A stretch of DNA of 64,000 bases, taken from contig NZ_MECJ01000002.1 in the NCBI RefSeq assembly GCF_014596475.1, positions 248,001 through 312,000 on the forward strand, in the 5' to 3' direction. The DNA is from Streptomyces sp. CBMA152 (GTDB taxonomy: Bacteria; Actinomycetota; Actinomycetes; Streptomycetales; Streptomycetaceae). Position numbers and translations under genes: made by a program. The notes beneath the pieces were generated by a model. It made no database searches, was not told the origin of the DNA, and was given only the letters and a program-made list of their open reading frames with translations. Shown piece by piece: positions 39,810 to 56,166 of this stretch; within the stretch, counting starts at the first letter, position 1, and each line of letters opens with the position of its first letter.

Positions 39810-40003
39810 GGTCGTCCTCCCCGGGTCGGCGTACTCCCCGACCCTCAGCAGCCTTCACGCAGGACCAACTGCCCCCGGCAGCCTCGGACAACGTAGTCCC
39901 AGCAGCGGGTCCTACGCCGTCGTCTGCCGCAGTACGACCTGTTACGCCTTCTTGACCACGCTGGACGAGTGGTGGTGGGGGCCACGGAAACCAGCCGGGT
40001 CCA

Positions 40004-40030
40004 ATGCAACTTATGCAACCAATGCAACCA
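40004..40030. repeat. Three tandem 9-base repeats upstream of the beta-lactamase gene
   Basis: ATGCAACTT, ATGCAACCA and ATGCAACCA follow each other without gap at 40004-40030, about 72 bases before the beta-lactamase start. The period is close to one helical turn, suitable for a regulator that binds direct repeats. The sequence is distinctly AT-richer than its surroundings. Confidence 0.6.
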
Positions 40031-40101
40031 ATCGGGCCGAAAGTGACGTCATGGCAGATGTCCCACCGTACGAACGCCTTCTTACGAACGAACGAAAGGA
40101 C

Positions 40102-41098: not shown

Positions 41099-41153
41099 CA
41101 GCGTGATTTCCGGCGGACACCTCAGTCGGCCGGGGACGACGACGTGGAGGTTG

Positions 41154-42122
41154 ATGGTGCGCTACCGCGAGCTGGGCCGCAGTGGGTTGTCCGTGTCCGA
41201 GATCGGTTACGGCGCCTGGGGCATCGGTGAGTCCAGTTGGGTGGGTGCGACGGAGGACGAGTCCGTACGCGCCCTGCACCGCGCCATCGACCTCGGCGTG
41301 AACCTCATCGACACAGCTCGTGGTTATGGCGAGAGCGAGCGGATCATCGGGCGCGTGGTGCGTGAGCGGGCGGGGGACGAGGTGTTGGTCGCCACCAAGG
41401 TGCCGCCGAAGAACCGTGTGTGGCCCGCGCCCGCCGGTATCGACCCGGCCGAGGCGTTTCCGGGTGAGCACATCCGTACCAGCCTGGAGACCAGTCTGCG
41501 GGCCAGTGGCCTGGACCACTTCGACGCCCTGCAGTTCCATGTCTGGAGCGACGACTGGATGGGGCGCGGCGACTGGTTGGAGACCATCGCCGAGCTGAAG
41601 CATGAGGGCAAGATCCGTCTGTTCGGTGTCTCCATCAACGACCATGAGCCCGACAGCGCGCTCGCGCTCGTGCGCAGCGGCGTCGTGGACAGCGTGCAGG
41701 TCATCTACAACGTCTTCGACCAGGCGCCCGCCGACGCGTTGCTGCCCGCCTGCGAGGAGCATGGCGTGGGTGTCATCGTGCGCGTGGCGCTGGACGAGGG
41801 CGGTCTCACCGGCCGGATCACCGCCGACACGACGTTCCCCGACGGCGACTGGCGCCACCGCTACTTCCGTGGTGACCGCCCGGCGCAGATCGAGCGGCGG
41901 GTGGCCGCGATCGTCGACGACCTCGGTATCGAGACCGATCAGATCGCCGAGTACGCGCTGCGGTTCGTCCTGAGTTCACCGGCGGTCTCCACCGTCATCC
42001 CCGGTATGCGCAGCGTCCACAACGTCGAGCGCAACACCGCCCTCAGCGACGGGCGTCCGCTCACCACCGACCAACTCGCCGTGCTGGCCAAGCACCGGTG
42101 GGAGCGCAACTTCTACTCCTGA
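41154..42122 (+). CDS. Aldo/keto reductase
   Basis: A 322-residue NADPH-dependent TIM-barrel reductase. The catalytic Asp and Tyr lie in [13 protein letters not shown], the Lys in VLVATKVPP and the His in DALQFHVWS, giving the full AKR tetrad. The C-terminal NADP-binding segment [17 protein letters not shown] is also present. It is of the YhdN/ion-channel-type bacterial group that reduces aldehydes or small ketones. ATG 41154 has GTGGAGG upstream. It is convergent with the CCR gene and separated from it by a very strong terminator, so its link to the PKS is only positional. Confidence 0.92.
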
Positions 42123-42208: not shown

Positions 42209-43435
42209 TCAGGCGCTCAACGCGTTGACACGTACGGCCATGTTGCCGGACGGGTGCTTGTTCTCGTACATCAGCTGGTGTGCGAGGCCGGTCTCCTCGA
42301 AGTCGCCGACCCAGGACAGACACGGGTCGAGCTTCTTGCTGGCGGCGAGCTCGATGACCTGTCGGCACTGGCGGATGTTCGCGAAGTGCGAGCCCTGGAG
42401 GCGCTTCTGACGCATCCACAGGAACCGCAGGTCCACATCGCCGTTGTAGCCGCTGGTGCCACCGCAGATGACCACCATGCCCGCCGTGTCGCACAGGTAC
42501 ATGGAGGTGGGGATGGTGTTCTGGCCGCTGTGCTCCAGCACGATCTTCGGCGCCCGGCGCTCGCCGAGGACGTCCCAGAACTTGGTGCCGAAGGCGCGGA
42601 CACCCTTCATCCACTTGCCCATGGCCGCGCTGTCCGTGGTGTCCGGCAGCCGGCCCCAGTGGTCGAACTCGTTGCGGTTGATGAACCCTTCCGCGCCGAG
42701 CTCCAGACAGTGCTTGCCGCGCTCCTCGTCGGAGACCACGGCGATGGGCACACCGCCGCGGATGCGGGTGATCTGGATCGCCATCGAGCCGAGGCCACCG
42801 GCGCCGCCCCAGATCAGCACCGGGTCCCCGGGCTCCACGGTGTGCGGGGCCCAGCCGCACAGCTGCCGGTAGGCGGTCGCGCCCGTCAGCAGGAAGCAGG
42901 CCGCCTCCTCCCAGGTGAGGTTGGCCGGCTTGGGGTGGCACTGGTAGTCGTCGACGAGCGCGTACTGCGCGAACGAGCCGTAGTTGGTCTCATACCCCCA
43001 GGCGTTCTGGGTGGCGGAGGTCATCGGGTCGGCGCCCATCCGGATGTCCTGGGCGGTCTCGTCCCAGGTGCAGCCCGAGAGCATCACCTCGTCGCCGACC
43101 TTCACACAGCTCACGCCCTCGCCGACGGCCCAGACTATGCCGGACCCCTCGGAGCCGCCGATGTGGAAGTCCTCGGGCTCGCCGCGCTTCTGCCGCCCGG
43201 CGATGACGTCGTACGGGTAGCCGAGGGACGCCCAGACGTTGTTGTAGTTGATGCCCGCGGCCATCACATAGACGAGCACCTGGCCCCGGCCGACGCGCGG
43301 CGTGTCCACGACCTCCATGGCGAAGCCCTGCTCCGGCGGACCGTAGCGGTCCGGGCGGATGACCGACGCGTGCATACGCGAGGGCACCTCGCCCAGCGGG
43401 GGCATCTGTCCGATGTCGTACAGGTCCTTGGTCAA
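42209..43435 (-). CDS. ccr: Crotonyl-CoA carboxylase/reductase homologue (enoyl-thioester carboxylase)
   Basis: A 408-residue MDR-family enzyme of the CCR group, which reduces an enoyl-CoA with NADPH and carboxylates it to an alkylmalonyl-CoA, an unusual PKS extender. Residues reported for the CO2 site are kept: Asn in INYNNVW, Glu in WGYETNYG (the neighbouring Phe is Tyr here) and His in GSHFANIR. The NADPH fold is LIWGGAGGLGSMAIQ. It is shorter at the N-terminus than primary-metabolism Ccr (about 445), and its sequence diverges notably in the substrate region, so it is probably a pathway-specific paralogue. TTG 43435 is preferred with GGAGG five bases upstream; GTG 43447 is an alternative. 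It lies 59 bases after the PKS stop, in one operon. Confidence 0.85.
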   Translation of the reverse strand: MTKDLYDIGQMPPLGEVPSRMHASVIRPDRYGPPEQGFAMEVVDTPRVGRGQVLVYVMAAGINYNNVWASLGYPYDVIAGRQKRGEPEDFHIGGSEGSGIVWAVGEGVSCVKVGDEVMLSGCTWDETAQDIRMGADPMTSATQNAWGYETNYGSFAQYALVDDYQCHPKPANLTWEEAACFLLTGATAYRQLCGWAPHTVEPGDPVLIWGGAGGLGSMAIQITRIRGGVPIAVVSDEERGKHCLELGAEGFINRNEFDHWGRLPDTTDSAAMGKWMKGVRAFGTKFWDVLGERRAPKIVLEHSGQNTIPTSMYLCDTAGMVVICGGTSGYNGDVDLRFLWMRQKRLQGSHFANIRQCRQVIELAASKKLDPCLSWVGDFEETGLAHQLMYENKHPSGNMAVRVNALSA

Positions 43436-43494
43436 CTCTTCCTCCACCTGGTGTTTCTGTCGTTGCTGTCGAGCAGGGGGTGTCGCGGGGGTCG

Positions 43495-46400
43495 TCAAGC
43501 GACGGTGTCCGCTCCGAGTTCCACTTCGAGCTCCCGGGCCAGTGACGCGGTCGTGGTCTCCTTCACCAGCCGGGTCATGGGCAGGGCGACGCCGAGGTCC
43601 TTCTCCAGCCGCTTGCGCAGCTCGGTGGCCATGAGCGAGTCCATGCCGAGCTGGCTGAACCGCTTGTTCACATCGAGCCGGGCGACGCGCATCTTGAGGA
43701 CGGCGGCGACGTGCTCCGCGACGCGTTCGGTGACGGTGCGGTTCGTGGCGGGCTGGGGTGTGGCTTGCGGTGCGGGGTGGGGCTGGGCCTGTGCTGCCGC
43801 GACGGGGGCGGGTGCCGCGACGGGCGCGGCGGTACGGACGGGTGCGGCGACCGGCGTCGCGGCCTCCACCCCACGTGCCGTACCGGCTGCGTTCGCCGCG
43901 ATCCGCAGGCTGCCGCGCAGCTCGATCACGAAGCCACTGGAGGGGTCGGTCAGGCGCAGCTCGCCGGTGAGTTCGATGCCCTGGCCCAGGCCGTGCACCT
44001 CGCCCGGTTCCGCCGCTCGCGCGTGCTCGGCCGTCATGGTCGCGTTCACCTTGTCTTCCTCGTTCTGTTCGCCGGTGCGGCGACGTATCGGCATGCCCTT
44101 GGCCTCGGCGACGACACGGCGTTCGTCGTCGAACAGGGCGATGTCCAGGGCGAGTTCGCCGTCGGCGGCCTCGGTGATCCGGCACGCGGTCCACAGCTCG
44201 TCCGTCGCCGGGCCGTACACCGTGAACCCGGTGAGGTTCGGCGTGAGGAGCGAGGGATCGGGGAGCAGCGCCAGGGCCGGCTGGTAGGCCGACCGCACCA
44301 GATCGGGGTGGACCGGGTGACCCGTGCGGGGCTCCATCGAGGCGGGCCGGTGCAGTCGCGCGACGGCCTCGCCCTGCCCGAGCCAGATCTCGTCCAGTAC
44401 GCGCCGCAGCGCACCGGCCCCGGCCGTGCGGCGGTAGAACGTGTCGGGATCCAGCCGGTCCGGGCAGCGCGCCAGGATCTGGTCGAGCGGTTCGTGCCCG
44501 GCCGGGGTCCCGTCGGGCAGCACCGTGGCGGTTCCACCGGCACGCCGCGTCCAGTCGCCGTCGCCGGGTCGGCTCGTGACCTCGAACTCCCAGCTCCCGT
44601 CGGTCGCGGCCGGGGTGAGGACGACCCGCAGGGTGTGCGCCTCGCCGGGCCGTACGAGCAGCGCCTCCTCGATGTCCACCCCGGTGAGCAGCACCGACTC
44701 GCTGCCCGAGGTCAGGGCGGCGGCGGCCCTGGCGACCTCCACGAACTCCGGCCCGTGCACCACGGCCGGACCGCCGTCGGCGCTCTCCGGCAGGAACGGC
44801 GACCCCGCCGCGTCCAGCCGGAACTCATGGGACTGCGGCAGTGACTCCAGGTCCTCCACCCAGTAGCTCTCCCGCTGCCACGGATACGTCGGCAGCGGTA
44901 CGGCACGGCCGCCGCCGTACAGCCCGTTGAAGTCGACGCGGGCGCCCGTCTCGTACACCTTGCCCAGATGGGTCAGCAGGGTGCGGCGTTCCGGTTCCTC
45001 GCGGAGGAGGGAGCCGATGGCGGTGCCGGGCAGGGCGGCGTCGTCGAGGGAGTCCTGCACCGCGCCCGACAGCACCGGGTGCGGGCTGATCTCGATGAAC
45101 ACCGTCTCACTCTGGAGCGCGGTGCTGAGCACGGCCTCGTGGAAGTGGACGCGGCCACGGATGTTGCGGGTCCAGTACGAGGCGTCGAGCCCGGTCCCGT
45201 CCTCCAGCTCACCGGTGACCGTGGAGCGCAGCGGGATGCGTCCGGCGCGCGGCTCGATCTCCCGTAGTTCCGCCGCGAGTTCATCGAGCAGCGGGTCCAT
45301 GTGGGCGCAGTGCGAGGCGGCTTCGGCCTTCATGACACGGCAGAAGACATCGCGGCTGTCCAGCTCGGCCTTGATCTTCTCGATGCCCTCGATCTCCCCG
45401 GCGAGGACGGTGGTGCGCGGGCCGTTGCTGGCCGCGACCGAGACATCGACGGCGAGCTCGGCGATGAGCTGTTCGGCGTCGGCGGCGGCGAGCGCGGCCA
45501 CCGACATCGTGCCGCTCCCGGCGACGCGGTCGCGGATCAGCCGGGCCCGGCGGCAGACCACGGCCGCGGCATCCGCGAGGCTGAGCGCGCCCGCGACGCA
45601 GGCGGCGGCCGATTCGCCCATGCTGTGCCCGATGACCACGTCGGGTTCGACGCCCCAGGCCCGCCAGGTCTCGGCGAGCGAGACCTGGATCGCCCAGAGC
45701 ACCGGGTGCACGATGGCCACGGTCTCGCCGATCAGGTCGCTGCCGTCGCTGAGCCTGTCGATGACGGACCAGCCGGTCTCGGCGCGTACGGCCTCGTCGC
45801 AGCGGATCAGCGCCGCGCTGAACGCCGGTGAGACGTCCATGAGTTCACGGCCCATGCCGATCCACTGGGAGCCGTGGCCGGAGAAGACGAAGGCGATCTG
45901 CGGGCGGCCCGCGTAGCCCGTGTGGCCGTCCTCGGCCAGGGTGTCGCGCAGGCGCTCGGCGAGTGCGTCGTGGCTGTCGCCGACGACCGAGAGGCGGCAG
46001 TCGAGGTGCGGGCGCCGAGTGGCGGCGGTGTGGCAGAGGTCCGCGAGCTCGGCGCTGCGGCCCGCGCCGCCCGGGGCGAGGTGGTGCGCCAGGTCCTGGA
46101 CGCGCTGCCGCAGGGCTTCGGGGGAGGCGGCGGAGAGGGTGAGCAGGTGCTCGGCGCCGGTCTCGGTGGCGGCCGGACGGCGGACGCCGCCTTCGTCGGG
46201 CTCGGCCTCGGTCAGGACGAGGTGCACGTTGGTGCCGGACACGCCGAATCCGCTCACCCCGGCGGCCAGCGGGCGCCCTTGTACGTCGAGGGGTACGGCG
46301 CCGAGGCGCGGGATGTCGAGACCCGCGCCGTCCCAGTCGACCGTGGAGGTGCGTTCGGTGACATGGAGGCTGCGCGGGATGGTGCGGTGCTTGAGGGCAA

Positions 46401-47478
46401 GGGCGATCTTGATCAGCCCGAGCACGCCGGCGGCGGAGCCGGTGTGGCCGATATTGCTCTTCACCGAGCCGACGAGCAGCGGCCGGTCCGTGCGGTGGCC
46501 GGTGAACGCGGCGGCGATCGCGCCGAGTTCGACCGGGTCGCCCGCGCGGGTGCCGGTGCCGTGGGCCTCGATGTAGTCGACGTCGGAGAGGGCGATCCCG
46601 GCGTGCTCGTAGGCGAGTTGGAGCATCTGGCGCTGGCCGCTCAGGGCGGGGCTCATCATGGTGTCGCTGCCCGCGCCGTCGTTGTTCATCCCCCAGCCCC
46701 GGATCACCGCGCGGATGGGGTCGCCGTCGGCGATCGCCCGGTCCAGCGGCTTGAGCAGGACCACGCCGACGCCTTCACTGAAGACGAACCCGTCGGCGGC
46801 GGCGTCGCCGAAGCGGCAGTTCTCCGAGAAGACGTTGGCGTCGACGAACCCGTGGTTCTCGGTGTTGGCGAGCAGCAGCTGCGAGCCGCCCGCGATGGCC
46901 AGGGTGGACTCGCCGGCCTGGAGGCTCTGGCAGGCGAGCGCGATGGCGGTGAGGGAGGACGAGCAGGCGGTGTCGACCGAGAGTCCGGGCCCGGCGATGT
47001 CCAGGGCGAACGAGACGCGGCCCGTCGTGGTGGAGCGCGAACCGGCGCCGAGCGAGGCGTGGATGTCGGGCCAGCCCACGCTCTGCTGGAGATCCCAGTA
47101 GTGGACATTGGTGGTGCCCGCATAGACGCCGGTACGGGTCCCCGCGAGCTCGGCGGGGTCCTGCCCGGCATCCTCAAGGGCCTCCCAGACGGTCTCCATG
47201 AAGAGCCGCTGCTGCGGGTCCATGCCCGCCGCTTCCCGGGGGGAGATCCCGAAGTACTCGGCGTCGAACCGGTCCACGTCCTTGAGGAGCGCGGAGCGGA
47301 CACGGGCCCCGGGAATCTCGTACTGCCGCCCGAACCTGACCGGCGGAACGTCCTCGACCGAGCAGACCTCGTCCATCAGGAGCTGCCAGAAAGCGTCCGG
47401 GCCGTCGGCGCCGGGGACCCGGCAGGCCATTCCCACGATCGCTATCGGTGCGGGCCGCACCGGGGTGTCTTGACCCAT
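43495..47478 (-). CDS. Single-module type I polyketide synthase (KS-AT-degenerate DH-ACP)
   Basis: A 1327-residue PKS. KS (about 10-430) has the Cys in DTACSSSL, His in EAHGTGT and His in KSNIGH. AT (about 530-850) has GHSMGE and, where malonyl ATs show HAFH and methylmalonyl ATs YASH, the unusual AASH. The next region (about 880-1140) aligns with a dehydratase but lacks HxxxGxxxxP and has Arg for the catalytic Asp (HPDLVRSAYQ), so it should be inactive or structural. After an Ala/Pro linker comes an ACP with MDSLMA near residue 1280. No KR, ER, TE or docking domains are seen. The size resembles iterative bacterial orsellinate-type synthases. ATG 47478 has AAGGAAG twelve bases upstream. The CCR gene follows. 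Confidence 0.93.
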   Translation of the reverse strand: MGQDTPVRPAPIAIVGMACRVPGADGPDAFWQLLMDEVCSVEDVPPVRFGRQYEIPGARVRSALLKDVDRFDAEYFGISPREAAGMDPQQRLFMETVWEALEDAGQDPAELAGTRTGVYAGTTNVHYWDLQQSVGWPDIHASLGAGSRSTTTGRVSFALDIAGPGLSVDTACSSSLTAIALACQSLQAGESTLAIAGGSQLLLANTENHGFVDANVFSENCRFGDAAADGFVFSEGVGVVLLKPLDRAIADGDPIRAVIRGWGMNNDGAGSDTMMSPALSGQRQMLQLAYEHAGIALSDVDYIEAHGTGTRAGDPVELGAIAAAFTGHRTDRPLLVGSVKSNIGHTGSAAGVLGLIKIALALKHRTIPRSLHVTERTSTVDWDGAGLDIPRLGAVPLDVQGRPLAAGVSGFGVSGTNVHLVLTEAEPDEGGVRRPAATETGAEHLLTLSAASPEALRQRVQDLAHHLAPGGAGRSAELADLCHTAATRRPHLDCRLSVVGDSHDALAERLRDTLAEDGHTGYAGRPQIAFVFSGHGSQWIGMGRELMDVSPAFSAALIRCDEAVRAETGWSVIDRLSDGSDLIGETVAIVHPVLWAIQVSLAETWRAWGVEPDVVIGHSMGESAAACVAGALSLADAAAVVCRRARLIRDRVAGSGTMSVAALAAADAEQLIAELAVDVSVAASNGPRTTVLAGEIEGIEKIKAELDSRDVFCRVMKAEAASHCAHMDPLLDELAAELREIEPRAGRIPLRSTVTGELEDGTGLDASYWTRNIRGRVHFHEAVLSTALQSETVFIEISPHPVLSGAVQDSLDDAALPGTAIGSLLREEPERRTLLTHLGKVYETGARVDFNGLYGGGRAVPLPTYPWQRESYWVEDLESLPQSHEFRLDAAGSPFLPESADGGPAVVHGPEFVEVARAAAALTSGSESVLLTGVDIEEALLVRPGEAHTLRVVLTPAATDGSWEFEVTSRPGDGDWTRRAGGTATVLPDGTPAGHEPLDQILARCPDRLDPDTFYRRTAGAGALRRVLDEIWLGQGEAVARLHRPASMEPRTGHPVHPDLVRSAYQPALALLPDPSLLTPNLTGFTVYGPATDELWTACRITEAADGELALDIALFDDERRVVAEAKGMPIRRRTGEQNEEDKVNATMTAEHARAAEPGEVHGLGQGIELTGELRLTDPSSGFVIELRGSLRIAANAAGTARGVEAATPVAAPVRTAAPVAAPAPVAAAQAQPHPAPQATPQPATNRTVTERVAEHVAAVLKMRVARLDVNKRFSQLGMDSLMATELRKRLEKDLGVALPMTRLVKETTTASLARELEVELGADTVA

Positions 47479-47562
47479 GATGTGTACGTGACTTCCTTAA
47501 GTCGGGCAGACCGCACGGCAGTCGGCTGCGCGGGATCGGATTCGACTCTCGCAATAACGGCC

Positions 47563-47580
47563 GGGAATGTTCAACATCCC
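47563..47580. promoter_or_regulatory. Candidate regulator site upstream of the PKS
   Basis: GGGAATGTTCAACATCCC contains the 5+5 inverted repeat ATGTT-C-AACAT, 90 bases before the PKS start and between it and the LuxR-type regulator gene. It is a plausible site for that regulator; the arms are imperfect outside the core. Confidence 0.35.
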
Positions 47581-47668
47581 GTCAGCAAATTGCCAGAGTG
47601 CCCGGTGAATTGATGTCATCAGTGGCAGGTTGCTGCCTACACGTAACGTGGAGGAAACGGCTGTGGAC

Positions 47669-48418
47669 TTACGCCTGCAACAAGCCCATGCGGGCTGCGT
47701 GGAGTCCGGCCTGGAATCGGGAACGCGCGCCGAGCAGGCGCATGATGTCCGCGACTCGTCTGCGGTAGGTCCGCACCGACATGTCCAGTTCCCGGGCGGC
47801 CGCTTCGTCCGTGCAGCCGTCGCCGAGCATCTGCAGAATCCTCGTTCCGCAGTCGCTGCTGAGATATTCCTGGAGTTGCTGGTACTTGGCGAGCGGGGCG
47901 GCCCGGTGCCACGCGGTCATCATGAGGTCGTGGAGCGCCCTGACCACGCCGGGGGCGCGGATGATGGAGGCCTCGGCGCCGGGGGTGACCACGCCGGGCG
48001 AGCGCACCAGCGCGACCTGCCGGTCCACGACCAAGGCGGCCTGCCGCACGTCGGCGGCGGCCAGCCGGATCTCCACGCCCTCGACGATCGCGCCCAGTCG
48101 GGCCAGCCGGTCGTCCCCGGCCAGGTCGGGCGCCGCGAGAATCCGTACGCGGATATCGCGCGGGCGCCGGGCGGCCAGTCCGCGTAACGCGGCGCCGACC
48201 ACGGGTAACGCGTCCTCTGAATTCGGTACGAGCATGGTCACCGAATGCTCGGCCCGCTCCACCAGGGATTCCAGTGTGTTGGCGGCGACACTTCTGTCGT
48301 CTATGACGGCGAGCGTCGAATCTTCGAGTGCGCGGATCTGTACATCGTTGACGACGGATTCGATCAACGGCCGCATCTGCGACAGCACTTCATCACAGAG
48401 GGAGTTGGAATTACGCAT
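47669..48418 (-). CDS. LuxR-type (GerE helix-turn-helix) regulator with two TTA codons
   Basis: A 249-residue regulator. The N-terminal 170 residues form an alpha/beta sensor-like region (SVTMLVPNSEDALPVVG, RVRILAAPDLAGDDRL) resembling the TrmB/phospholipase-D-like domain fused to LuxR helix-turn-helices in Streptomyces. The C-terminal DNA-binding domain has MLGDGCTDEAAARELDMSVR with the turn and recognition helix TYRRRVADIMRLLGARSRF. Two Leu codons are TTA (minus strand, 48206-48208 and 48185-48187), so its synthesis should depend on bldA tRNA. ATG 48418 follows GATGAGG. It lies upstream of the PKS on the same strand and is the natural candidate for its activator. Confidence 0.88.
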   Translation of the reverse strand: MRNSNSLCDEVLSQMRPLIESVVNDVQIRALEDSTLAVIDDRSVAANTLESLVERAEHSVTMLVPNSEDALPVVGAALRGLAARRPRDIRVRILAAPDLAGDDRLARLGAIVEGVEIRLAAADVRQAALVVDRQVALVRSPGVVTPGAEASIIRAPGVVRALHDLMMTAWHRAAPLAKYQQLQEYLSSDCGTRILQMLGDGCTDEAAARELDMSVRTYRRRVADIMRLLGARSRFQAGLHAARMGLLQA

Positions 48419-48880
48419 GCATGCCTCATCGAGTTTGCAGTATCGCGTCCGAAAAGGCAGCCGTGCTCGCAGCGACGAGGGAGTGAGGGGAAAATCCGGG
48501 TAGCGATGCGCGGCGCCCACCATTTCATGCCCCTGAAAAACACGCGCCTCTCTGTGATCACCACCCTACCGCTGAGTAACGCTACAGTTCGTAGCGATAC
48601 ATAGTCAACGCGTGACCACTGCACGGGGGTTGACATCCGGCCAGTCGCATGGTGCTGCGCTCGGTGACGCGGCCCACAGGGAGGGCAGGTCGGGCCCGCG
48701 CCCGCGCTCCCCGGCCACCATCGGACCGGCCCGGTGGGGCAACGGTTACCGCCGGTTCGGTGACCCCTGCGGCAGGCCCGGTGGCGTGAACGGCCGGACC
48801 GCGGCCAGTGGTTCGGATCTGACGCTTTTTGCGTGGTCCGAATTCTTGCGGGGCACGCAACTTCTGTACGCTGCCCGGCC
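48419..48880. other. 462-base divergent intergenic region
   Basis: It separates the LuxR and TetR genes. It contains an inverted repeat CGCTAC-agttc-GTAGCG at 48580-48596 and a wider one, TTGCGTG (48829-48835) with CACGCAA (48854-48860), 20 bases before the TetR start. No gene with codon bias is seen in it. The two repeats are candidate operators of the flanking regulators. Confidence 0.45.
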
Positions 48881-49489
48881 ATGGGCACTGCACAGCACAA
48901 CGCCCCCGGGCCGGGGCTGCGCGAGCGCAAGAAGCAGGCGACCCGCACCGCGCTGAGCCTCGCGGCGCTGCGGCTCGCCTCGGAACGCGGCTGGGAGGCC
49001 GTCCGCGTCGAGGACATCGCGGCCGCGGCCGGGGTGTCGGCCCGTACGTTCAACAACTACTTCTCCAGCAAGGAGGAGGCCGTGATGGCCACGGGCGCCG
49101 ACCGGGCCGAGCGGGTCAGGGTGGCGCTGCGGGGGCGGCCGCCCGAGGAGCCGCTGTGGGACGCGCTCACCCATGCGCTCACCAGTGCGCTCGGGGAGTC
49201 ACCCGCAGTCGAACCCGGCATCGTCCTGCGCGCCCGCCTCACCCTCGCCCACTCACAACTCGCCGCCGAACAGATGCGGTTCGAGACGACCATGGCGGCA
49301 GCCCTCGCCGCCGAGATTGCCCGGCGCACCGGCACCGACGCCGAGCGCGACCTCTATCCGCGCCTGGCGGCCACCCTCGCCCTCACCACCACCCGGCTGG
49401 CCTTCGAGCACTGGGTGACCAGCGGCTCCGACGCCTCCGCGCTGGACTCCGTACGGCAGGCGCTGCGGCGCGTACGGATCGATCCGTAG
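48881..49489 (+). CDS. TetR family regulator
   Basis: A 202-residue regulator with a typical N-terminal TetR helix-turn-helix (about 15-60: ATRTALSLAALRLASERGWE, then VEDIAAAAGVSARTFNNYFSSKEE). The C-terminal half resembles the MftR/AcrR-like group (LTLAHSQLAAEQMRFE). ATG 48881 has no clear ribosome-binding site. It lies 71 bases upstream of the TTA-containing membrane protein gene on the same strand, so it probably controls that gene and itself; a 7+7 bp inverted repeat sits before it. The inducer is unknown. Confidence 0.9.
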   Translation: MGTAQHNAPGPGLRERKKQATRTALSLAALRLASERGWEAVRVEDIAAAAGVSARTFNNYFSSKEEAVMATGADRAERVRVALRGRPPEEPLWDALTHALTSALGESPAVEPGIVLRARLTLAHSQLAAEQMRFETTMAAALAAEIARRTGTDAERDLYPRLAATLALTTTRLAFEHWVTSGSDASALDSVRQALRRVRIDP

Positions 49490-49560
49490 CCCACCGCGGC
49501 GCGGACCCCGTCCGGCACGGCCGCCTCGGGTGCCCCAACGCACAGAGAGAGCCAACTGCC

Positions 49561-50646
49561 ATGTCCCGTAAGCCTGTCAGCAATCCTGTCAGCACCGCAT
49601 CACCCGCCAAGACTGCCGACGCGGAATCCACCGCACCGGACGGCTGGCGCAAGGTCCCGATCCTCGTCGTCGGACTCACCGCACTCCTCGTCGCGATGCT
49701 CACCGCCTTCGCGTTACCGGCGATCAACTCCGGCCCGCACAAGGTGCCCATCGCCGTCGTCGGGCCCGACGCGGCCGCAGAGAAGATCGCCGGGCAGCTG
49801 GAGAAGGCCAAGCCCGGCGGGTTCCGCATCAGGACGCTGCCGGACGCCGAGGCGGCCCGCGAGCGCATCGACGACCGCGACATCTACGGCGCGGTGGTCG
49901 TCGGCGCCACCCCGGGCGCCAAGCCCGAGGTCCTGATCGCCACCACCGCCAGCCCCACCATCGCCACGACCCTGCGCACCCTGGCCCGGGCGCTCGACCC
50001 GGCGACCGCCGAGTCCGGGGTCGTGGTGCGCGATCTGCACCCGCCGATGGCCGACGACCCCAACGCGATCGGGCTCTCGGCCGGTGCGCTGCCGCTGGTG
50101 CTCGGTGGGTATCTCGCCGCCGCCGCGATCGTGACGCTGCTGCGCGAACCCGCCCAGCGCGCCGCCACCGCGTTCGGCTTCTCGATCGCGGGCGGTTTCG
50201 CCCTCACGGCCCTGTTGCAGTACGGCTTCGGTGTGACCAACGGGAACTACGCGCTGACGTCGCTGGCCGTCACCTTCAGCACGGCCGCCACCTGCTGGAC
50301 CATCATGGGCCTGCAAGCGGTGCTCGGCGGCGCCGGGCTGGGTCTGGGCGCGGCCATGATGATCTTCCTCGGCAACCCGCTGTCGGGGTTGGCCGGTGGC
50401 CCCGAGTGGCTGCCGACCCCATGGGGCACCTTCGGCCAGTTCCTGCCGCCGGGCGCGGGCGGGACGCTGCTGCGCTCGACCGCGTTCTTCGACGGCTCCG
50501 GCAGTATGCGCGCGCTGATCGTCCTGTCCTGCTGGCTCCTGGGCGGCCTCGCGCTCTTCGTCCTCGGATCACGCCGAGAGGCAGCGCCGGGAGTCGTGGC
50601 CCACACCCCGCAGCGGGAGCCGGAGCCCACGCTCGGCAAGTCCTAG
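49561..50646 (+). CDS. ABC-2/YhgE-like membrane protein with a TTA codon
   Basis: A 361-residue membrane protein. One hydrophobic segment near residue 35 (PILVVGLTALLVAMLTAFALP) is followed by a 120-residue extracytoplasmic domain (PIAVVGPDAAAEKIAGQLEK and so on) and then four or five membrane helices (ALPLVLGGYLAAAAIVTLL to LIVLSCWLLGGLALFVLG). This layout matches ABC-2-type and YhgE/Pip-like permeases used for export or envelope interaction, but no ATPase gene is next to it. Leu52 is TTA (49714-49716), so expression should depend on bldA. ATG 49561 has a weak AGAGAG site. It forms a pair with the TetR gene and ends at a terminator. Confidence 0.8.
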   Translation: MSRKPVSNPVSTASPAKTADAESTAPDGWRKVPILVVGLTALLVAMLTAFALPAINSGPHKVPIAVVGPDAAAEKIAGQLEKAKPGGFRIRTLPDAEAARERIDDRDIYGAVVVGATPGAKPEVLIATTASPTIATTLRTLARALDPATAESGVVVRDLHPPMADDPNAIGLSAGALPLVLGGYLAAAAIVTLLREPAQRAATAFGFSIAGGFALTALLQYGFGVTNGNYALTSLAVTFSTAATCWTIMGLQAVLGGAGLGLGAAMMIFLGNPLSGLAGGPEWLPTPWGTFGQFLPPGAGGTLLRSTAFFDGSGSMRALIVLSCWLLGGLALFVLGSRREAAPGVVAHTPQREPEPTLGKS

Positions 50647-50653
50647 GAAGGAC

Positions 50654-50688
50654 AGCGGCCGTACGGGCCCCGAACCCGTACGGCCGCT
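50654..50688. terminator. Bidirectional terminator
   Basis: AGCGGCCGTACGGG (50654-50667) pairs perfectly with CCCGTACGGCCGCT (50675-50688) across a 7-base loop, ending both the membrane protein gene and the convergent CoA operon. Confidence 0.8.
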
Positions 50689-50693
50689 CCGCC

Positions 50694-51494
50694 TCACTCC
50701 TCGACGAAGGCCACGGCCCGGGTGGGCGCCGCGCTCGTGCCGGTGAGTTTCAGCGGGAAGAAGCCGACCATGAAGCCGGTCGGCGGCAGGGAGGCCAGGT
50801 TCACCAACTGCTGGACGATCAGGGCCTCCTTGTCCTGGATCGCGTAGTGGCCGTCCCAGATGTGCGTGCTGTCACCGGTCTCCTGGAAGGCCGCGCGCAT
50901 CCTCGGGATGGGGCGGTCCCAGCCGATGGCGTCGGTGCCGAGGATCGTGGCGCCCTTGCCGGTGAGGTAGCGGGTGCCCTCGCCGGACATACCGGGGTAG
51001 TCGAAGTACTGCGGCTCGCCCAGGGTGTAGCGCTCCTGACCGGTGCGGATGAGGACCGCGTCGCCTTCCTCGATGTCGCGTCCGGTCGCTTCGACGGCCT
51101 TGCGCAGCGCCTCCACGGGTATCGCCTCGCCCGGTTTGGCCCATGGTCGTACGTCCAGGACCAGGCCTGGGCGGTAGAGCTCTTCGAGGGCGAGGTCGCT
51201 GATGGTGCGGGAGGGGCGGCCCTCGCACATCCGGCCGCTGTGCAGCGGTGCGTCCACATGCGTACCGCAGTGGGTGCTGATCTCGCGCATGACCTCGCCG
51301 GCCGGTCCCTCGCGGCTCGGCAGGTCGTCGGGGTCGCAGCCGAAGGACGCGACCATGAAGTCACGGCCCCAGGCGTCGTGCGTGTGGTAGTCGATCTTCG
51401 GCGCGACCACCAGCGCCAGGTCGGGCATGTCGGGGGGGATGAGGTCTAGGTCACGGGGGTCGAGTGGGGAAGTCAGGTCGACGATGCGGCTCAT
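50694..51494 (-). CDS. Cyclase family (kynurenine formamidase-like) metal hydrolase
   Basis: A 266-residue protein of the PF04199 cyclase/formamidase family. The metal motif HxGTHxDxPxH appears as HCGTHVDAPLH (about residues 75-85), with the acidic and His partners further on (TGDSTHIWDGHYAI). Members hydrolyse arylformamides or act on small cyclic amides or enols; many act in aromatic or polyketide-like degradation. ATG 51494 lies six bases after the stop of the ligase gene on the minus strand, so it is the last gene of the four-gene operon and ends at the shared terminator. Its exact substrate is not known. Confidence 0.88.
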   Translation of the reverse strand: MSRIVDLTSPLDPRDLDLIPPDMPDLALVVAPKIDYHTHDAWGRDFMVASFGCDPDDLPSREGPAGEVMREISTHCGTHVDAPLHSGRMCEGRPSRTISDLALEELYRPGLVLDVRPWAKPGEAIPVEALRKAVEATGRDIEEGDAVLIRTGQERYTLGEPQYFDYPGMSGEGTRYLTGKGATILGTDAIGWDRPIPRMRAAFQETGDSTHIWDGHYAIQDKEALIVQQLVNLASLPPTGFMVGFFPLKLTGTSAAPTRAVAFVEE

Positions 51495-51500: not shown

Positions 51501-53066
51501 TCAGCCTCTCTCGGGTGCGGCGTGCGGGGACCTGCCGATGACTCCTCTCAGCTCGGTCTTCAGGACTTTTCCGTAGGAGTTCTTGGGCAGCGCGGCGACG
51601 AAGCGGAAGTCCCGTGGCCGCTTGAATCGCGCCAGCTGCCCAAGGCAGTGGTCGTCCAGCTCGGCGGCCGTCGCCGTCCGTCCGTCCGCGAGGACGACGA
51701 AGGCGACGGGCAGTTCACCCCACTCGGGGTCGGGAGCGCCCACGACGGCGGCCTCGGCGACCGCCGGGTGACGCAGCAGGGCTTCCTCCACCTCACGCGG
51801 ATAGATGTTGGAACCCCCGGCGATGATCAGGTCCTTGGCGCGGTCGACAAGGGTGAGGAAACCGTACGCGTCGAACCATCCCAGGTCGCCGGTGTGCAAC
51901 CGACCGCCGCGCAGGGTACGCGCGGTGGCGTCCGGGTTGTTCCAGTAGCCCGCCATCACGGTGTCACCCCTGACGGTGACCTCGCCCGTGGTCCCGGGCG
52001 CCACCTCCCGGCCGTCCGCGTCCACCACCCGCACCTCGACCCCGGTGCGCGGGCGCCCGACGCTCGCCAGGCGCCGTCCCAGCGCCTCGGCGTCGTCGCC
52101 CTCGTGGTCCTCGGGCCGCAGATGGGTGATGGTGGCGGGGGTCTCGCCCTGCCCGTACCCCTGCCACAGCCGCCGGGCTCCGAAGCGGGCGATGACCTTG
52201 CGCAGGTCCTCGGTGTACATCGGGGCCCCGCCGTAGAGGATGTGGTGCACCTGCCCGACCAGCGCGTCCGGCAGCAGGGCGGGATCCAGCAGTCGGCGCA
52301 GGATGGTCGGCACCGCGAAGAACGTCACCGGCCCGTGGGCCCGCAGCGCCTCGGCCAGGGCGGGTGCGTCCACCGCACCGCCCCGGGGGAAGACCTGGGG
52401 CCGCGAACGGGCCACCGTGGCCAGGCCGAAGAGCCCGCCCGCGTGGGACAGGGGTGCGATGTGCAGCAGCGAGGCGTCCATGCCCCGGCTGATGTCGGCG
52501 AGCGCGCAGGCGGTGGCCGCCGCCAGATTGGCATGGGTGAGGGTGGCGCCCTTGGGGTGGCCGGTCGTGCCGCTCGTATAGAACAACCACGCCGGGTCAC
52601 CCGGTCGTACGTCCGCCGGGGGCTCGCCCCCGGGCTGTTCGACCGCCCCGGCCAGCTCCGCGACCGACGTCAACATGGTTGATCCCAGGCCGTGTTCACG
52701 CAGCAGACCGAACAGCTCGTCCGTGGCGACACACACCCGGGCCGTGCAGTCCTCGATCTGCTGGGCGAACTCCTTCGGGTGCAGCCGCGCGTTCATCGGC
52801 GTCGCCACAAGACCGGCCCACCACACGCCGAACAGGATCTCCGGATAGTACGGAGTGTTGCGCATCGCCAGCGCGACCCGGTCGCCGGGTCGCAGACCGT
52901 ACTCGCGCAGCAACGCGGCCCCGATCGCCCGGGCCCGCTCGGCCAGTTGACGATAGTCGCGCACCACGTCGGCGCCCTCGCACACCGCCGGGGCGTCCGG
53001 GGTGCGCCCGGCCGCTCGGTGGAGCAGCGCAGCGATGTTCACGGGTCCGTACATCGGCTCGTTCAT
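51501..53066 (-). CDS. Acyl-CoA ligase (AMP-forming)
   Basis: A 521-residue member of the ANL superfamily of acyl-activating enzymes. It contains YTSGTTGHPKG (about residues 175-185), GYGQGETPA, the A7-like HTGDLGWFDAYG, DLIIAGGSNIYPREVEE with the hinge region, and the catalytic lysine in KNSYGKVLK near the end. It adenylates a carboxylic acid and transfers it to CoA; the overall look is of a medium- or long-chain fatty or aromatic acid ligase. ATG 53066 follows AAGGGGGA and overlaps the thiolase stop by four bases (ATGA). It feeds the CoA-ester pathway of the operon. Confidence 0.92.
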   Translation of the reverse strand: MNEPMYGPVNIAALLHRAAGRTPDAPAVCEGADVVRDYRQLAERARAIGAALLREYGLRPGDRVALAMRNTPYYPEILFGVWWAGLVATPMNARLHPKEFAQQIEDCTARVCVATDELFGLLREHGLGSTMLTSVAELAGAVEQPGGEPPADVRPGDPAWLFYTSGTTGHPKGATLTHANLAAATACALADISRGMDASLLHIAPLSHAGGLFGLATVARSRPQVFPRGGAVDAPALAEALRAHGPVTFFAVPTILRRLLDPALLPDALVGQVHHILYGGAPMYTEDLRKVIARFGARRLWQGYGQGETPATITHLRPEDHEGDDAEALGRRLASVGRPRTGVEVRVVDADGREVAPGTTGEVTVRGDTVMAGYWNNPDATARTLRGGRLHTGDLGWFDAYGFLTLVDRAKDLIIAGGSNIYPREVEEALLRHPAVAEAAVVGAPDPEWGELPVAFVVLADGRTATAAELDDHCLGQLARFKRPRDFRFVAALPKNSYGKVLKTELRGVIGRSPHAAPERG

Positions 53067-54307
53067 GAACGTCCCCCTTCGCCGGGCGGCGCCTCCAGGA
53101 CGACGACCGCGGCGGCCGCCTCCTCGAAGCCCAGGAACCCGCCGCCGTTCTCGGCGAGCCCGATGCGGGCACCGGGCACCTGACGTACACCGGCCTCGCC
53201 GCGCAACTGTGTGGTGAGCTCTGCTATCTGCCCGATGCCGGTGGCCCCGACGGGATGGCCGTTGCACTCCAGACCGCCGGAGGTGTTCACCGGGAGGCGG
53301 CCGCCGAGCTCGGTGTGGCCGCGCTCGGCCGCGAGGGCGCCCTCGCCGGACGCCACTAGGCCGAGGGCTTCGAGCTGAAGGACCTCGCCGATCGCCGTCG
53401 CGTCATGGACCTCGGCGAGCGAGACGTCGCCGGGACCAAGTCCCGCGCGTTCGTAGGCAGTTGAGGATGCGAGCCGGGTGATCTGCCGTGCCTCGTCGTC
53501 CAGGGCCCGGCCCGAGCCGGAGGCCACCACGCTCGCCCGGATCCGCACGGCACGCCGCAGGCCGAGCCGTCGCGCCGCCGCCGGTGAGCAGACCAGGGCC
53601 GCCGCCGCGCCGTCGCCGATGGGCGCGCACATCGGCAGCGTCAGCGGCGCCACGATCTCCCGTGCGGCGAGCACTTCGTCGACCGTGAGCGGGGTGCGGT
53701 GGGTGGCCTTGGGGTTGAGCGAGCCGTGCCGCCGGTTCTTGGCGGTGACGGCGGCGAGCCGGCGGGGGGTGCAGTCGGGGTGCCGCCGTCGGTAGTGGGC
53801 GGCGAGGGCGGCGTAGATGTCCATGAACACCGAGCGCCGCCCGGGCGGGACGGCCTCGGCCCCGGCCGCCTCCCGCAGCGCCTTGAGCTCGGCCTCCCAG
53901 CGCGCCACGTCAAGACCGCCCCGGAACGCCTCGGTCGTGCGCACCTCGTCGGCCCCGTACATCTTCTCGGCGCCGAGGGCCAGGGCGACCTCCATCTCCC
54001 CGGCCCGTACGGCGGTGGCCGCGAGATGGAAGGCCGTGGCACCACTGGCGCAGGCGTTCTCGACGTTGACGACCGGAACACCTTCGAGGCCGGTGCCGCG
54101 CATCGCGATCTGACCCCGTATCAGATGCTGTCCTTCCAGGGCTCCTTGGGTGGCGTTCGCGAAGAACACCCCGTCGACCACGGAGGATTCGACCCCGGCG
54201 TCGGCCAGGCACAGCGACAGTGCCTCACCCGCGAGCGCGCCGACGCCGAGGTCCGGGAACCTGCCGTACGGAGTACGGCCCACGGCGAGCACGTACGCGT
54301 CGCTCAT
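53063..54307 (-). CDS. SCP2-type thiolase-like protein
   Basis: A 414-residue thiolase-fold protein. The nucleophile Cys is in ENACASGATAF (about residue 88), a conserved His segment is CNGHPVGATGIG and the mid-region EVHDATAIGE matches the SCP-x/SCP2 group. The second catalytic Cys of biosynthetic thiolases, normally in CxGGG near the C-terminus, is replaced (GLAENGGGF), as in SCP2-type and condensing variants. It may cleave or condense beta-ketoacyl-CoA esters. ATG 54307 overlaps the stop of the FAH gene by four bases (ATGA), and its own stop overlaps the ligase start in the same way, so the three proteins are translationally coupled. Confidence 0.9.
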   Translation of the reverse strand: MSDAYVLAVGRTPYGRFPDLGVGALAGEALSLCLADAGVESSVVDGVFFANATQGALEGQHLIRGQIAMRGTGLEGVPVVNVENACASGATAFHLAATAVRAGEMEVALALGAEKMYGADEVRTTEAFRGGLDVARWEAELKALREAAGAEAVPPGRRSVFMDIYAALAAHYRRRHPDCTPRRLAAVTAKNRRHGSLNPKATHRTPLTVDEVLAAREIVAPLTLPMCAPIGDGAAAALVCSPAAARRLGLRRAVRIRASVVASGSGRALDDEARQITRLASSTAYERAGLGPGDVSLAEVHDATAIGEVLQLEALGLVASGEGALAAERGHTELGGRLPVNTSGGLECNGHPVGATGIGQIAELTTQLRGEAGVRQVPGARIGLAENGGGFLGFEEAAAAVVVLEAPPGEGGRS

Positions 54308-55302
54308 GAGCCGTTCGCGGGGCTCACCGGGACGCGCACCGTATTGCGCAGGACGCCGATCCCCTCGACCTCCAGCTCGACCACGTCCCCGTCGCCGAGC
54401 GAGCGCGCCAGGTCGAAGCCGGTGCCTGAGGGGACCGTGCCGGACCCGATGACGTCCCCGGCGTGCACCGCCCGGTCCCGGCTGAGCTGCACGATCGCGT
54501 CCTCGAAGCTGTGCTCCATGCCGTCGGTGGTGCCGCGCGACCACTCCTGGCCGTTGACCCGGGCGGTCATCGTCAGCGCGTACGGATCGGTCAGCTCGTC
54601 GCGGGTGACGATGCAGGGGCCGAGGGTGTTGGACCCGGCGAAGTCCTTGCCCTCGCAGGGCCCCACGCCCGCCCGCATCAGCACCATCTGGAGGTCCCGG
54701 GCGCTCCAGTCGTTGAAGACCGTGTACCCGAAGATGTGCTCGCCGGCCGCCCCGGGCTTGACCTCCCGGCCCGTACGGCCCACCACGGCGGCGAACTCCA
54801 GCTCGTAGTCGAGCTCCTGCGCCCCCGCCGGGGCGGTGATCACGTCCTCGGGCCCGCTCACCGACAGATGGTCGGCCGTGTAGTACATGACCCGCTCGCG
54901 GAACAGCGGGTTCAGGTCGAACCGGCCGCTCGCCATGAGCCGTTCGAACTCGGCGGCGGGATCCTCCGCCCCGGCGGACTGGCGCCGGGCCAACTCCCGT
55001 AATCCGGACTCCAGATGGGCGATGAACAGCCCGCAGTCGCGCAGCCGGGCCGGGCGCGGCAGGGGCGACAGGAGGCGGACGTCGGCCCGGGCGAGCAAGC
55101 TGCTGTCGGGACGGCGTTCGGCCAGCTCCTGGGCGCGGGCGAGACCGGCGTCGGCCGACTCGATCAGCGCCTGCATGGAGGCGAAGGCCGCTTCGTCGGG
55201 AGCTGCGGCGGTGAGATCGAGGACGGTCGCGTCCTCGTCCAGCAGTGCCCCGACGCACTGCCGGTTCGGTTGGTTCTCCCTGACGAACGTGACCAGGCGC
55301 AT
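54304..55302 (-). CDS. Fumarylacetoacetate hydrolase family protein with a TTA codon
   Basis: A 332-residue protein. The N-terminal part is a variable domain and the C-terminal 200 residues are the FAH fold with metal ligands ELDYELEFA (Glu-x-Glu), GYTVFNDWSARDLQ and the lysine-bearing GKDFAGSNTLGP. Members cleave C-C bonds of acylpyruvates or decarboxylate 4-oxalocrotonate-type compounds. One Leu codon (about residue 101, minus strand 55000-55002) is TTA, so the whole coupled operon may depend on bldA. ATG 55302 follows GGGAGA. It heads the four-gene operon and is divergent from the TetR gene. Confidence 0.92.
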   Translation of the reverse strand: MRLVTFVRENQPNRQCVGALLDEDATVLDLTAAAPDEAAFASMQALIESADAGLARAQELAERRPDSSLLARADVRLLSPLPRPARLRDCGLFIAHLESGLRELARRQSAGAEDPAAEFERLMASGRFDLNPLFRERVMYYTADHLSVSGPEDVITAPAGAQELDYELEFAAVVGRTGREVKPGAAGEHIFGYTVFNDWSARDLQMVLMRAGVGPCEGKDFAGSNTLGPCIVTRDELTDPYALTMTARVNGQEWSRGTTDGMEHSFEDAIVQLSRDRAVHAGDVIGSGTVPSGTGFDLARSLGDGDVVELEVEGIGVLRNTVRVPVSPANGS

Positions 55303-55434: not shown

Positions 55435-55458
55435 TGGACAGCTGTCCAATCGTTGGAC
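55435..55458. promoter_or_regulatory. Two overlapping palindromes, TetR operator
   Basis: TGGACAGCTGTCCA (55435-55448) is a perfect palindrome; GTCCAA-tcg-TTGGAC (55444-55458) is a second inverted repeat that shares its centre half-site. The site lies between the divergent FAH operon and TetR gene. Three alternating half-sites allow two repressor dimers to bind side by side. Confidence 0.65.
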
Positions 55459-55572
55459 GCCTGACACAGGTCGTCAAGAGTCCGGACATGATCAGTGTCC
55501 GCGCGGTGCTCGGCCCGGCATCGGCCGCCGGAGGTCTGGGGCGGCCGCACCCCCTGTGGAACAATCGCCCGC

Positions 55573-56166
55573 ATGGCTGGTCGTCGTGAGGAATCCGCGC
55601 GGGAGAGCCGCCGTCGTCTGCTTCAGGCCGCGACGGACCTGGTGGCCGAGGCGGGCCCGAGGGCCGCGTCCGTACAGGCGGTCGCCGAGCGGGCGGGCAT
55701 CAGCCGGGGCTCGGTCGCCTGGCACTTCGGCTCGAAGGACGGCCTGATCGTCGAGGTGATCGAGCGCGCCTTCACCACGGCCGAGGAGGAGTACCGCCGA
55801 CGCCTGCCGCAGTCCGGCCCGCTCTCCTTCGACCTGCTCGTGGACGCGCATCTGGCCGTGGTCGACGCCCCCTGCGGCCGCGTGTTCGCGACGGTCCTGC
55901 CCGAAGTCCTCGGCGGCGAGGGCCCGTTGAGGGGCGCCTACGTACGGGGTTACGAACGCACCCGGCAGGTGTGGATCGGCTATCTGGAACGGATCACGGC
56001 CGGAACGCCCGGACTGCCCGACGCGAAGAGCCTGGCGTCGATCGTCTTCGGCAGCGGGGTGGGCGTGAACACCCTGCACAGCCTCGACGGCCTGGTGGAC
56101 CGGGAGGCGGCCTTCGCGGCCCTGAAGCAGCTCTTCGCTCTGGCGGTGGCTCCTCGCGGGGAGTGA
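55573..56166 (+). CDS. TetR family repressor of the CoA operon
   Basis: A 197-residue TetR protein. The DNA-binding domain (about 10-55) reads RRRLLQAATDLVAEAGPR, VQAVAERAGISRGSVAWHFGSK. The C-terminal half is of the TetR_C_33-like type with a long loop. ATG 55573 follows weakly conserved sequence. It is divergent from the FAH-thiolase-ligase-cyclase operon, and overlapping palindromes lie between the two; it is probably their repressor, with an acyl-CoA or aromatic acid as inducer by analogy with other TetR proteins beside CoA ligases. Confidence 0.9.
   Translation: MAGRREESARESRRRLLQAATDLVAEAGPRAASVQAVAERAGISRGSVAWHFGSKDGLIVEVIERAFTTAEEEYRRRLPQSGPLSFDLLVDAHLAVVDAPCGRVFATVLPEVLGGEGPLRGAYVRGYERTRQVWIGYLERITAGTPGLPDAKSLASIVFGSGVGVNTLHSLDGLVDREAAFAALKQLFALAVAPRGE

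Follow-up and report, generated by a model that had tools for sequence, protein, structure and literature searches.

A conserved Streptomyces island that joins a one-module polyketide synthase and a crotonyl-CoA carboxylase/reductase to a putative ring-processing cassette

What does a single polyketide synthase (PKS) module make when a crotonyl-CoA carboxylase/reductase (CCR) gene follows it and a regulator gene with two TTA codons precedes it, and does the unit end with these three genes? The question is raised by a stretch of 64,000 nucleotides of Streptomyces sp. CBMA152 (contig NZ_MECJ01000002.1, positions 248,001 to 312,000, here called the window), in which an initial annotation, made from the letters alone, had described genes at 42209-48418 as a minimal PKS-CCR cluster. 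ORF calling and translation recovered PKS, CCR, and regulator at the positions given there. The three genes are, however, one part of a conserved island of ~14 kb (42209-56166), and the unit is not minimal or compact, because seven more genes, up to position 56166, belong to the conserved block. The cluster is real, conserved, and rare, and its three flagged genes had essentially been read correctly. From the sequence, we propose that 42209-56166 may build a small, unreduced, ethyl-branched polyketide, likely an alpha-pyrone, and that the arm composed of cyclase, ligase, thiolase, and FAH hydrolase would reshape or dismantle its ring; we hold this reading tentatively and give it slightly less than an even chance. 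The genes are as follows.

42209..43435, minus strand: CCR, 408 aa, TTG start (TIGR01751, 599 bits; AntE 4y0k, 666 bits)
43495..47478, minus strand: type I PKS, 1327 aa, with ketosynthase (KS), acyltransferase (AT), degenerate dehydratase-like (DH-like), and acyl carrier protein (ACP) domains in this order (Pfam domains, active-site motifs, AT motif AASHC)
47669..48418, minus strand: regulator, 249 aa, TrmB/PLD-like domain and weakly supported LuxR-like helix-turn-helix; TTA at codons 71 and 78
48881..49489, plus strand: TetR1, MftR-like C-terminal domain (Pfam); in six of eight loci
49561..50646, plus strand: ABC-2-permease-like membrane protein, putative exporter, one TTA (weak PF12698 match below cut-off); in six of eight loci
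50694..51494, minus strand: PF04199 'cyclase'-family metal enzyme (Pfam, 2.1e-29; motif HCGTHVDAPLH intact, W_19)
51501..53066, minus strand: acyl-CoA ligase (AMP-binding), 521 aa (Pfam, NCBIfam)
53063..54307, minus strand: SCP2-type thiolase-family protein, 414 aa (Pfam Thiolase_C_1 and Thiolase_N; PDB 6hsj, SCP2-thiolase)
54304..55302, minus strand: FAH-family hydrolase, 332 aa, one TTA (Pfam PF01557)
55495..56166, plus strand: TetR2, divergent from the FAH operon, at the left edge of the block (Pfam); in eight of eight loci

Conservation and rarity of the island

Eight loci were compared, i.e., the window (W) and seven carriers, five of which (L009 to L012 and L023) had a CCR identity of at least 86% among 80 CCR loci, and two of which (G300 and G051) were further CCR carriers among 391 other Streptomyces genomes. 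In L149 to L151 the CCR falls outside the stretch and in L152 at its edge; for these four it was taken from the companion loci L010, L011, L012, and L023. In all eight loci the gene order was the same: TetR2, FAH hydrolase, thiolase, acyl-CoA ligase, PF04199 'cyclase', exporter and TetR1 where present, regulator, PKS, and CCR. Exporter and TetR1 were found in six loci and were absent from L148 (S. melanogenes) and L123 (G300), and the conserved block thus comprises 8 to 10 genes, depending on these two. The right-hand flanks fell into three unrelated groups and the left-hand flanks into four (blastn, E<=1e-20). Over 28 locus pairs, the divergence of the FAH, thiolase, ligase, cyclase, regulator, and TetR2 proteins (CCR, exporter, and TetR1 being excluded) followed that of the PKS (r = 0.86 to 0.95). 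FAH orthologues of 75 to 86% identity adjoined the cluster in five further genomes, and the FAH match in S. caatingaensis contained one TGA within the matched frame. The conserved gene order in 8/8 loci and the enrichment of TTA codons in the regulator (see below) exceed chance.

The estimate of rarity rests on cyclase and CCR. At E<=1e-225 the CCR was present in 3 of 392 Streptomyces genomes, the window's own included, and at E<=1e-60 the cyclase was present in six, namely, the three CCR carriers, G064 (64%), G149 (52%), and G075 (49%); among 346 genomes of the phylum, searched at 1e-55, only the window's own carried the cyclase. When the regulator was used as a marker, 225 of the 392 genomes matched at 1e-15 but only three (the window's own, G300, and G051) at an identity of at least 67%. 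The next regulator relatives, in G031 (49%) and G154 (48%), were rejected as cluster carriers, as their surroundings share no other cluster gene family. The next-closest CCR (78 to 79%), in L013 of S. fumigatiscleroticus, had no cassette gene in its locus (one draft assembly), and the PKS there lacked residues ~83 to 718, i.e., nearly all of the KS and over half of the AT. At L013:7851-9950 a stop separates two PKS pieces, reflecting either decay or a draft-assembly collapse. The best FAH match in that genome (51% over a part) was on another contig; cyclase and ligase were sought at the locus only. In searches of the open-access literature, no paper listed described the gene set in its title or the opening of its abstract, and the initial annotation's failure to find a known product accords with this.

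Extender unit and ring closure

With 599 bits, the CCR exceeded the cut-off of its family profile TIGR01751 (378.55). Its TTG start, 59 bp past the PKS stop, is preceded by GGAGGAAGAG, which resembles a ribosome-binding site. AntE (4y0k) was its closest solved relative. At the positions that line the CO2 pocket, Asn, Glu, and His were retained and the Phe was a Tyr, the same as in AntE; since AntE is itself a CCR, this Tyr does not exclude a CCR. Asn, Glu, and His are given as residue types of the pocket in PMC10176493, and for these three the earlier statement that the carboxylation residues are kept is correct.

The AntE V350G exchange is described as having broadened the substrate range (PMC6164871). 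At this position the window CCR and its five close orthologues among the 80 loci carry Phe (GSHF), as do the five crotonyl-type chains compared, three of which are near-identical; across the 80 related CCRs, the residue was Val in 27, Tyr in 21, Phe in 18, Gly in 12, and Ala in 2. The use of a bulky Phe here as a mark of crotonyl specificity is a criterion that we inferred. Of the 120 matches listed from 5264, the 24 PKS orthologues had the AT motif AASHC and the remaining 96 did not; of the motifs treated in PMC10646177, YASH predicts methylmalonyl and VASH ethylmalonyl. Because of the Phe in the CCR together with the AASH motif of the AT, ethylmalonyl-CoA is our best guess for the extender. 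An alkylmalonyl extender had been suggested initially with the choice left open; the dedicated supply by a CCR is supported, and the residues point to the ethyl-bearing unit. A CCR route is also described for matlystatin (PMC5719088). The same genome holds two other CCRs, one at G000:C32:49364-50575 (L002; 70% identical, with Val where AntE has V350), which adjoins an AMP-ligase-like stretch, and one at G000:C4:27906-28997 (L003; 39% identical, Phe), close to solved crotonyl-CoA reductases.

By Pfam, the PKS contains KS, AT, and ACP, each bearing its active-site motif, and lacks ketoreductase, enoylreductase, and thioesterase (TE) domains. The earlier description of a lone module devoid of reductive or release domains thus stands with respect to these three and requires amendment in one respect, since the module contains a dehydratase-like region (Pfam PS-DH, 1.9e-13) whose catalytic His and Asp are gone:

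44059..44850, minus strand: degenerate DH-like domain of the PKS, residues ~877-1140 (Pfam PS-DH and PKS_DH_N; alignment to CurJ DH; Foldseek)

In an alignment of the PKS family, the KS Cys/His/His and the AT Ser/His were kept in 25/25 members and the ACP Ser was kept in 24/25, the exception being P0023, which is annotated as partial and stops before the ACP. The DH-like domain aligns to the DH of CurJ, and PKS dehydratases were the top Foldseek matches of its model, with low TM-scores that we use as support only. The catalytic His column held His in none of the 25 rows (Ser899 in the window) and the catalytic Asp column held Asp in none (Arg in 13, Ala in 10, His in 1, and Thr in 1), and the canonical Pro of the DH motif was replaced by a conserved His in 24/25. 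The 24 orthologues (P0004-P0027, 62 to 93% identity, among the 120 matches listed of 5264) are either named as Streptomyces or unnamed. Among the matches listed, those of similar length that come next are P0031 and P0032 (Saccharothrix, 45 to 46%) and P0089 (41%), all of which retain the catalytic His and have Glu in place of Asp. Across the seven other loci, identity to the window PKS was 49 to 69% in the DH-like region and the part after it, versus 74 to 90% in KS and AT. Between the DH-like domain and the ACP lies a strongly conserved segment, GIELTGELRLTDPSSGFVIELRGSLRI (PKS residues 1167-1193; 43900-43980, minus strand), which is recognisable in the Saccharothrix relatives too.

The precedent for a lost catalytic His is AviM, which has a product-template (PT) domain between AT and ACP: according to PMC9135731, mutation of the PT His ends orsellinate formation and yields tetraacetic acid lactone, a pyrone, by spontaneous O-C closure. 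Because the DH-like domain of the window PKS has no catalytic His and the AviM His mutant yields a pyrone, release of a pyrone is favoured by analogy. The initial annotation had named a pyrone or a resorcylate-like compound; the former is thus preferred, and the latter was rejected, as the catalytic His for C2-C7 closure is missing.

Regulator, TTA codons, and promoter motifs

The regulator of the window contains exactly two in-frame TTA codons (codons 71 and 78), as annotated initially, and TTA was present in the regulator in 7/8 loci, at five sites (codons 13, 18, 71, 78, and 246). Compared with the nine remaining genes at these loci (CCR counted in five loci, exporter and TetR1 in six), TTA was enriched in the regulator (10/1945 versus 4/29157 codons; Fisher P = 7e-10, a value that is only a guide because the loci are related and the rows are not independent, L148/L123 and L149/L152/L124 sharing sites). 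We consider bldA-dependent regulation of the regulator likely from these codons. In the structure model of the regulator (mean pLDDT 73, eight sequences), one domain had TrmBL2/TrmB and PLD-fold proteins as its top Foldseek matches (TM-score ~0.4 by query), and the C-terminal part beyond it was helical. Its last 60 residues gave two weak NCBIfam matches, to MadR (22 bits, cut-off 300) and ErdR (20.8 bits, cut-off 390). Three candidate sites were noted in the intergenic regions.

47479..47668, minus strand: region between regulator and PKS, in which an inverted repeat (GGCAG-N4-CTGCC) and a block reading GTTGAAC are kept in eight loci; putative regulator site
48580..48596, minus strand: CGCTAC-N5-GTAGCG, an inverted repeat upstream of the regulator whose 6-bp arms are perfect in 5/8 loci
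55444..55458, minus strand: GTCCAACGATTGGAC between FAH and TetR2, an inverted repeat whose 6-bp arms are separated by 3 bp; putative operator of TetR2

The arms of GGCAG-N4-CTGCC are perfect over 5 bp in W, L149, L152, and L124, and variants occur in the other four loci. For CGCTAC-N5-GTAGCG, ~1.6 chance occurrences are expected in the window at two mismatches. Between FAH and TetR2, the core CAACGATTGGAC was identical in 8/8 loci and TGGAC-N4-GTCCA was found in 8/8, while the full GTCCAACGATTGGAC repeat occurred in three (W, L148, and L123). Two cassettes with no PKS match in the 20 kb fetched carry TTGGACGTCCAA (L134) and two TGGAC half-sites (L135), the TTGGAC/TGGAC half-sites being common to these and the putative operator of the cluster.

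Role of the cassette and relation to known systems

The thiolase gene overlaps each of its neighbours by 4 bp. FAH hydrolase, ligase, and SCP2-type thiolase, together with the cyclase, plausibly make up a sequence of ring opening, C-C hydrolysis, CoA activation, and thiolysis. The cyclase has the motif HxGTHxDxPxH, which we take to be the metal motif of PF04199 cyclases/cyclohydrolases, and isatin hydrolases were among its PDB relatives. The 'cyclase' family treated in PMC10470551 spans isatin hydrolase, dihydrophloroglucinol cyclohydrolase, which opens its ring by a retro-Claisen reaction, and DpsY, for which cyclisation is proposed; the paper's account does not name PF04199, and we equate the two by analogy through the isatin hydrolase matches. 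That the cassette acts on the cluster's own product is suggested by linkage. Cyclase, FAH, thiolase, and ligase together with a TetR2 homologue were also found in G149 and G075, with no PKS match within the 20 kb fetched, and because the cassette occurs there without a PKS, it looks like an autonomous module joined to the PKS-CCR arm. G064 has cyclase and FAH only. The two cassettes that lack a PKS match in 20 kb (L134:9149-14418 and L135:6080-11311) possibly represent an uncharacterised ring-degradation operon.

In the proposed course of events, bldA would gate the regulator via its TTA codons and the regulator would switch on PKS and CCR. The CCR would convert crotonyl-CoA to ethylmalonyl-CoA, to be loaded by the AT, as the residues of both proteins suggest, and KS, AT, and ACP would perform one or a few condensations without reduction, as the domain content suggests. 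With a dead DH-like domain there would be no on-enzyme aldol ring closure, and the chain would, as in the AviM precedent, leave by O-C lactonisation as a pyrone. In what is the weakest step, TetR2 would sense the compound or a derivative and release the FAH-thiolase-ligase-cyclase operon, whose enzymes would suit the ring-opening, C-C hydrolysis, CoA activation, and thiolysis sequence given above. Where present, the membrane protein (no NCBIfam match) beside TetR1 could export the compound. A more far-reaching version, quite unlikely in our view, is a self-limiting signal cluster: a natural counterpart of cyclase-dead AviM would make a germicidin-like 3-ethyl-4-hydroxy-2-pyrone from CCR-made ethylmalonyl-CoA when bldA permits translation of the regulator, and a separately sensed four-enzyme cassette would open the pyrone and return its carbon to CoA metabolism, such that making and erasing would be inherited as one unit.

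Several points weigh against the reading as pyrone synthesis plus ring processing. Product and enzyme roles are predictions, whereas gene content, order, and conservation are observed. The structure model of the DH-like domain is poor (mean pLDDT 56.7) and alone too weak to assign a fold, and the His at the canonical-Pro position might serve as a substitute base. Among the 80 CCRs, 13 more distant ones, of unassigned substrate, also carry the Phe. The regulator of L151 has no TTA codon, and the regulator of the window matched no Pfam family; as its NCBIfam matches are also far under cut-off, the label 'LuxR' is weak, and in the earlier description as a bldA-dependent LuxR regulator the likely bldA dependence is supported and the LuxR part weakly so. 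The operator motifs are sequence patterns only. By eye and by an inverted-repeat scan, no DNA motif common to the regulator-PKS and FAH promoters was seen, and co-regulation of the two arms is unproven because they have separate regulators and no shared promoter motif was seen. Fumigermin was not degraded by any of the Streptomyces species reported on in PMC7034978, which may speak against pyrone breakdown. Finally, as members of the 'cyclase' family such as DpsY may close rings too, the cassette may be biosynthetic.

This last alternative, in which the ligase would activate a starter acid, the PF04199 enzyme would, in the manner proposed for DpsY, close or release the ring, and the skeleton would be tailored by thiolase and FAH, seems to us rather unlikely. 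It would account for a PKS without a release domain and for the tight linkage in 8/8 loci, and it has parallels in the cyclisation of a polyketide proposed for DpsY (PMC10470551) and in the reveromycin cluster, where a medium-chain acyl-CoA ligase and a CCR are combined for extender supply (PMC5187497). It fits less well with G149 and G075, which have the cassette and its own TetR with no PKS in the 20 kb fetched, with the appearance of the FAH-thiolase-ligase set as a breakdown route, and with an inverted repeat at the cassette promoter that was not seen at the PKS promoter. Another view, that the cassette is an unrelated catabolic operon that by chance adjoins the PKS-CCR unit, draws on the separate regulator and the independent occurrence of the cassette; given a linkage kept in 8/8 loci while the flanks vary, and a locus (L013, CCR 79%, one draft assembly) in which a truncated PKS goes with the absence of any cassette gene, we regard it as very unlikely.

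Two further alternatives concern the PKS arm, and we consider both doubtful. Instead of acting as an iterative pyrone synthase, the PKS might condense once, after which its ACP would hand over a 2-ethyl-3-oxoacyl chain to the thiolase or to a partner enzyme whose gene lies elsewhere; the single module, the lack of a release domain, and the presence of a thiolase-family condensing or cleaving enzyme within the block would agree with this. AviM, however, a standalone KS-AT-PT-ACP protein without a TE, is reported to iterate alone in vitro, though inefficiently (PMC9135731), and no separate ACP was present among the Pfam-scanned block genes, docking regions not being covered by that scan. The CCR, in turn, might serve a longer or branched enoyl-CoA and give a branch larger than ethyl. 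Its closest solved relative is AntE of antimycin biosynthesis, and the AASH motif of the AT lacks the Tyr of methylmalonyl ATs, and the pocket could therefore be wide; on the other side, the position at which AntE was widened in scope (Val to Gly) is Phe here, as in the crotonyl-type CCRs compared, whereas 27/80 related CCRs have Val and 12/80 have Gly.

Among known systems, AviM and bacterial orsellinic acid synthases, as described in PMC9135731, share with the window PKS the domain order KS-AT-DH/PT-ACP, a similar length (3.9-kb gene), the lack of a TE, and a DH-fold domain between AT and ACP. The catalytic His (H949 in AviM) and Asp are, however, absent from the DH/PT-like domain in 25/25 members of the window family, and the AT motif and the adjacent CCR point to ethylmalonyl where AviM uses malonyl. 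Because the catalytic His is missing, the window PKS is not placed in the AviM family, and the likeness extends only to how it would work. No chain named AviM was among the 16 PDB sequence matches of the DH-like domain (the presence of AviM in that PDB copy was not checked). Antimycin biosynthesis likewise places a pathway-type CCR, AntE, beside a PKS, AntD, which we take to be its one-module PKS. Antimycin-type clusters contain a nonribosomal peptide synthetase (NRPS), a TE, and 3-formamidosalicylate genes, none of which was found among the scanned genes of the block; the CCR Phe (Val350 in AntE) and the other companion genes differ as well.

The predicted product class is shared with the germicidins, germination autoregulators (PMC7034978) made by the type III PKS Gcs, which takes ethylmalonyl-CoA among its extenders and makes pyrones (PMC6274091). 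The PKS in the window is instead of type I and is accompanied by a CCR of its own and a putative ring-processing cassette, and its product is predicted from genes alone; no type III PKS was found among the scanned block genes. Elsewhere in the same genome, three PF02797 (type III PKS C-terminal-domain) matches lie on contigs C32, C4, and C19, the window being on C2, and a type III pyrone route may therefore coexist in the genome. Fumigermin is a germicidin-like pyrone from an iterative type I PKS, FgnA of Aspergillus fumigatus; this enzyme is fungal and uses malonyl-CoA units on an acetyl-CoA starter, and the passages on it in PMC7034978 mention no CCR or cassette. The cassette itself is closest in kind to the dihydrophloroglucinol cyclohydrolase pathway of Clostridium scatologenes, where, according to PMC10470551, one cluster holds a ring opener of the 'cyclase' family, a thiolase homologue, and another enzyme that cleaves C-C bonds; the window has FAH and ligase where Clostridium has lyase and CoA-transferase, and its cassette is linked to a PKS.

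Genes flanking the island were not counted as members. The aldo-keto reductase (41103-42122) and the beta-lactamase, NmrA-like, peptidase, and methyltransferase genes were without a counterpart next to the orthologous clusters within the stretches fetched, and the CMD protein (56186-57061) was not found in the 1 to 6 kb beyond TetR2 at other loci; CMD-like stretches (37 to 42%) lie near the cyclase-FAH pair of G064. The beta-lactamase, of class A (39802-41025, plus strand; NF033103, 337.5 bits, above cut-off), adjoins the cluster, and a chloramphenicol phosphotransferase-like protein is encoded at 57117-57650 (minus strand; PF07931, 222 bits). At 1129-6712 (plus strand), an NRPS-like protein with AMP-binding and PP-binding domains and a match to the hexapeptide repeat precedes an M1 peptidase, a pair that resembles a poly-amino-acid synthetase with its degrading peptidase.

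If pyrone synthesis coupled to ring processing is what the island encodes, ethyl-branched pyrones would have a bacterial route through a type I PKS, Streptomyces germicidins being products of a type III PKS, and there would be a natural case of a product-template/DH domain that was retained after losing its catalysis. For genome mining, the CCR-PKS pair alone would not be the unit to clone. The island would also link modules for synthesis and breakdown genetically while leaving each its separate sensor, and the clearance of small autoregulators by Streptomyces would become testable by a few gene deletions.

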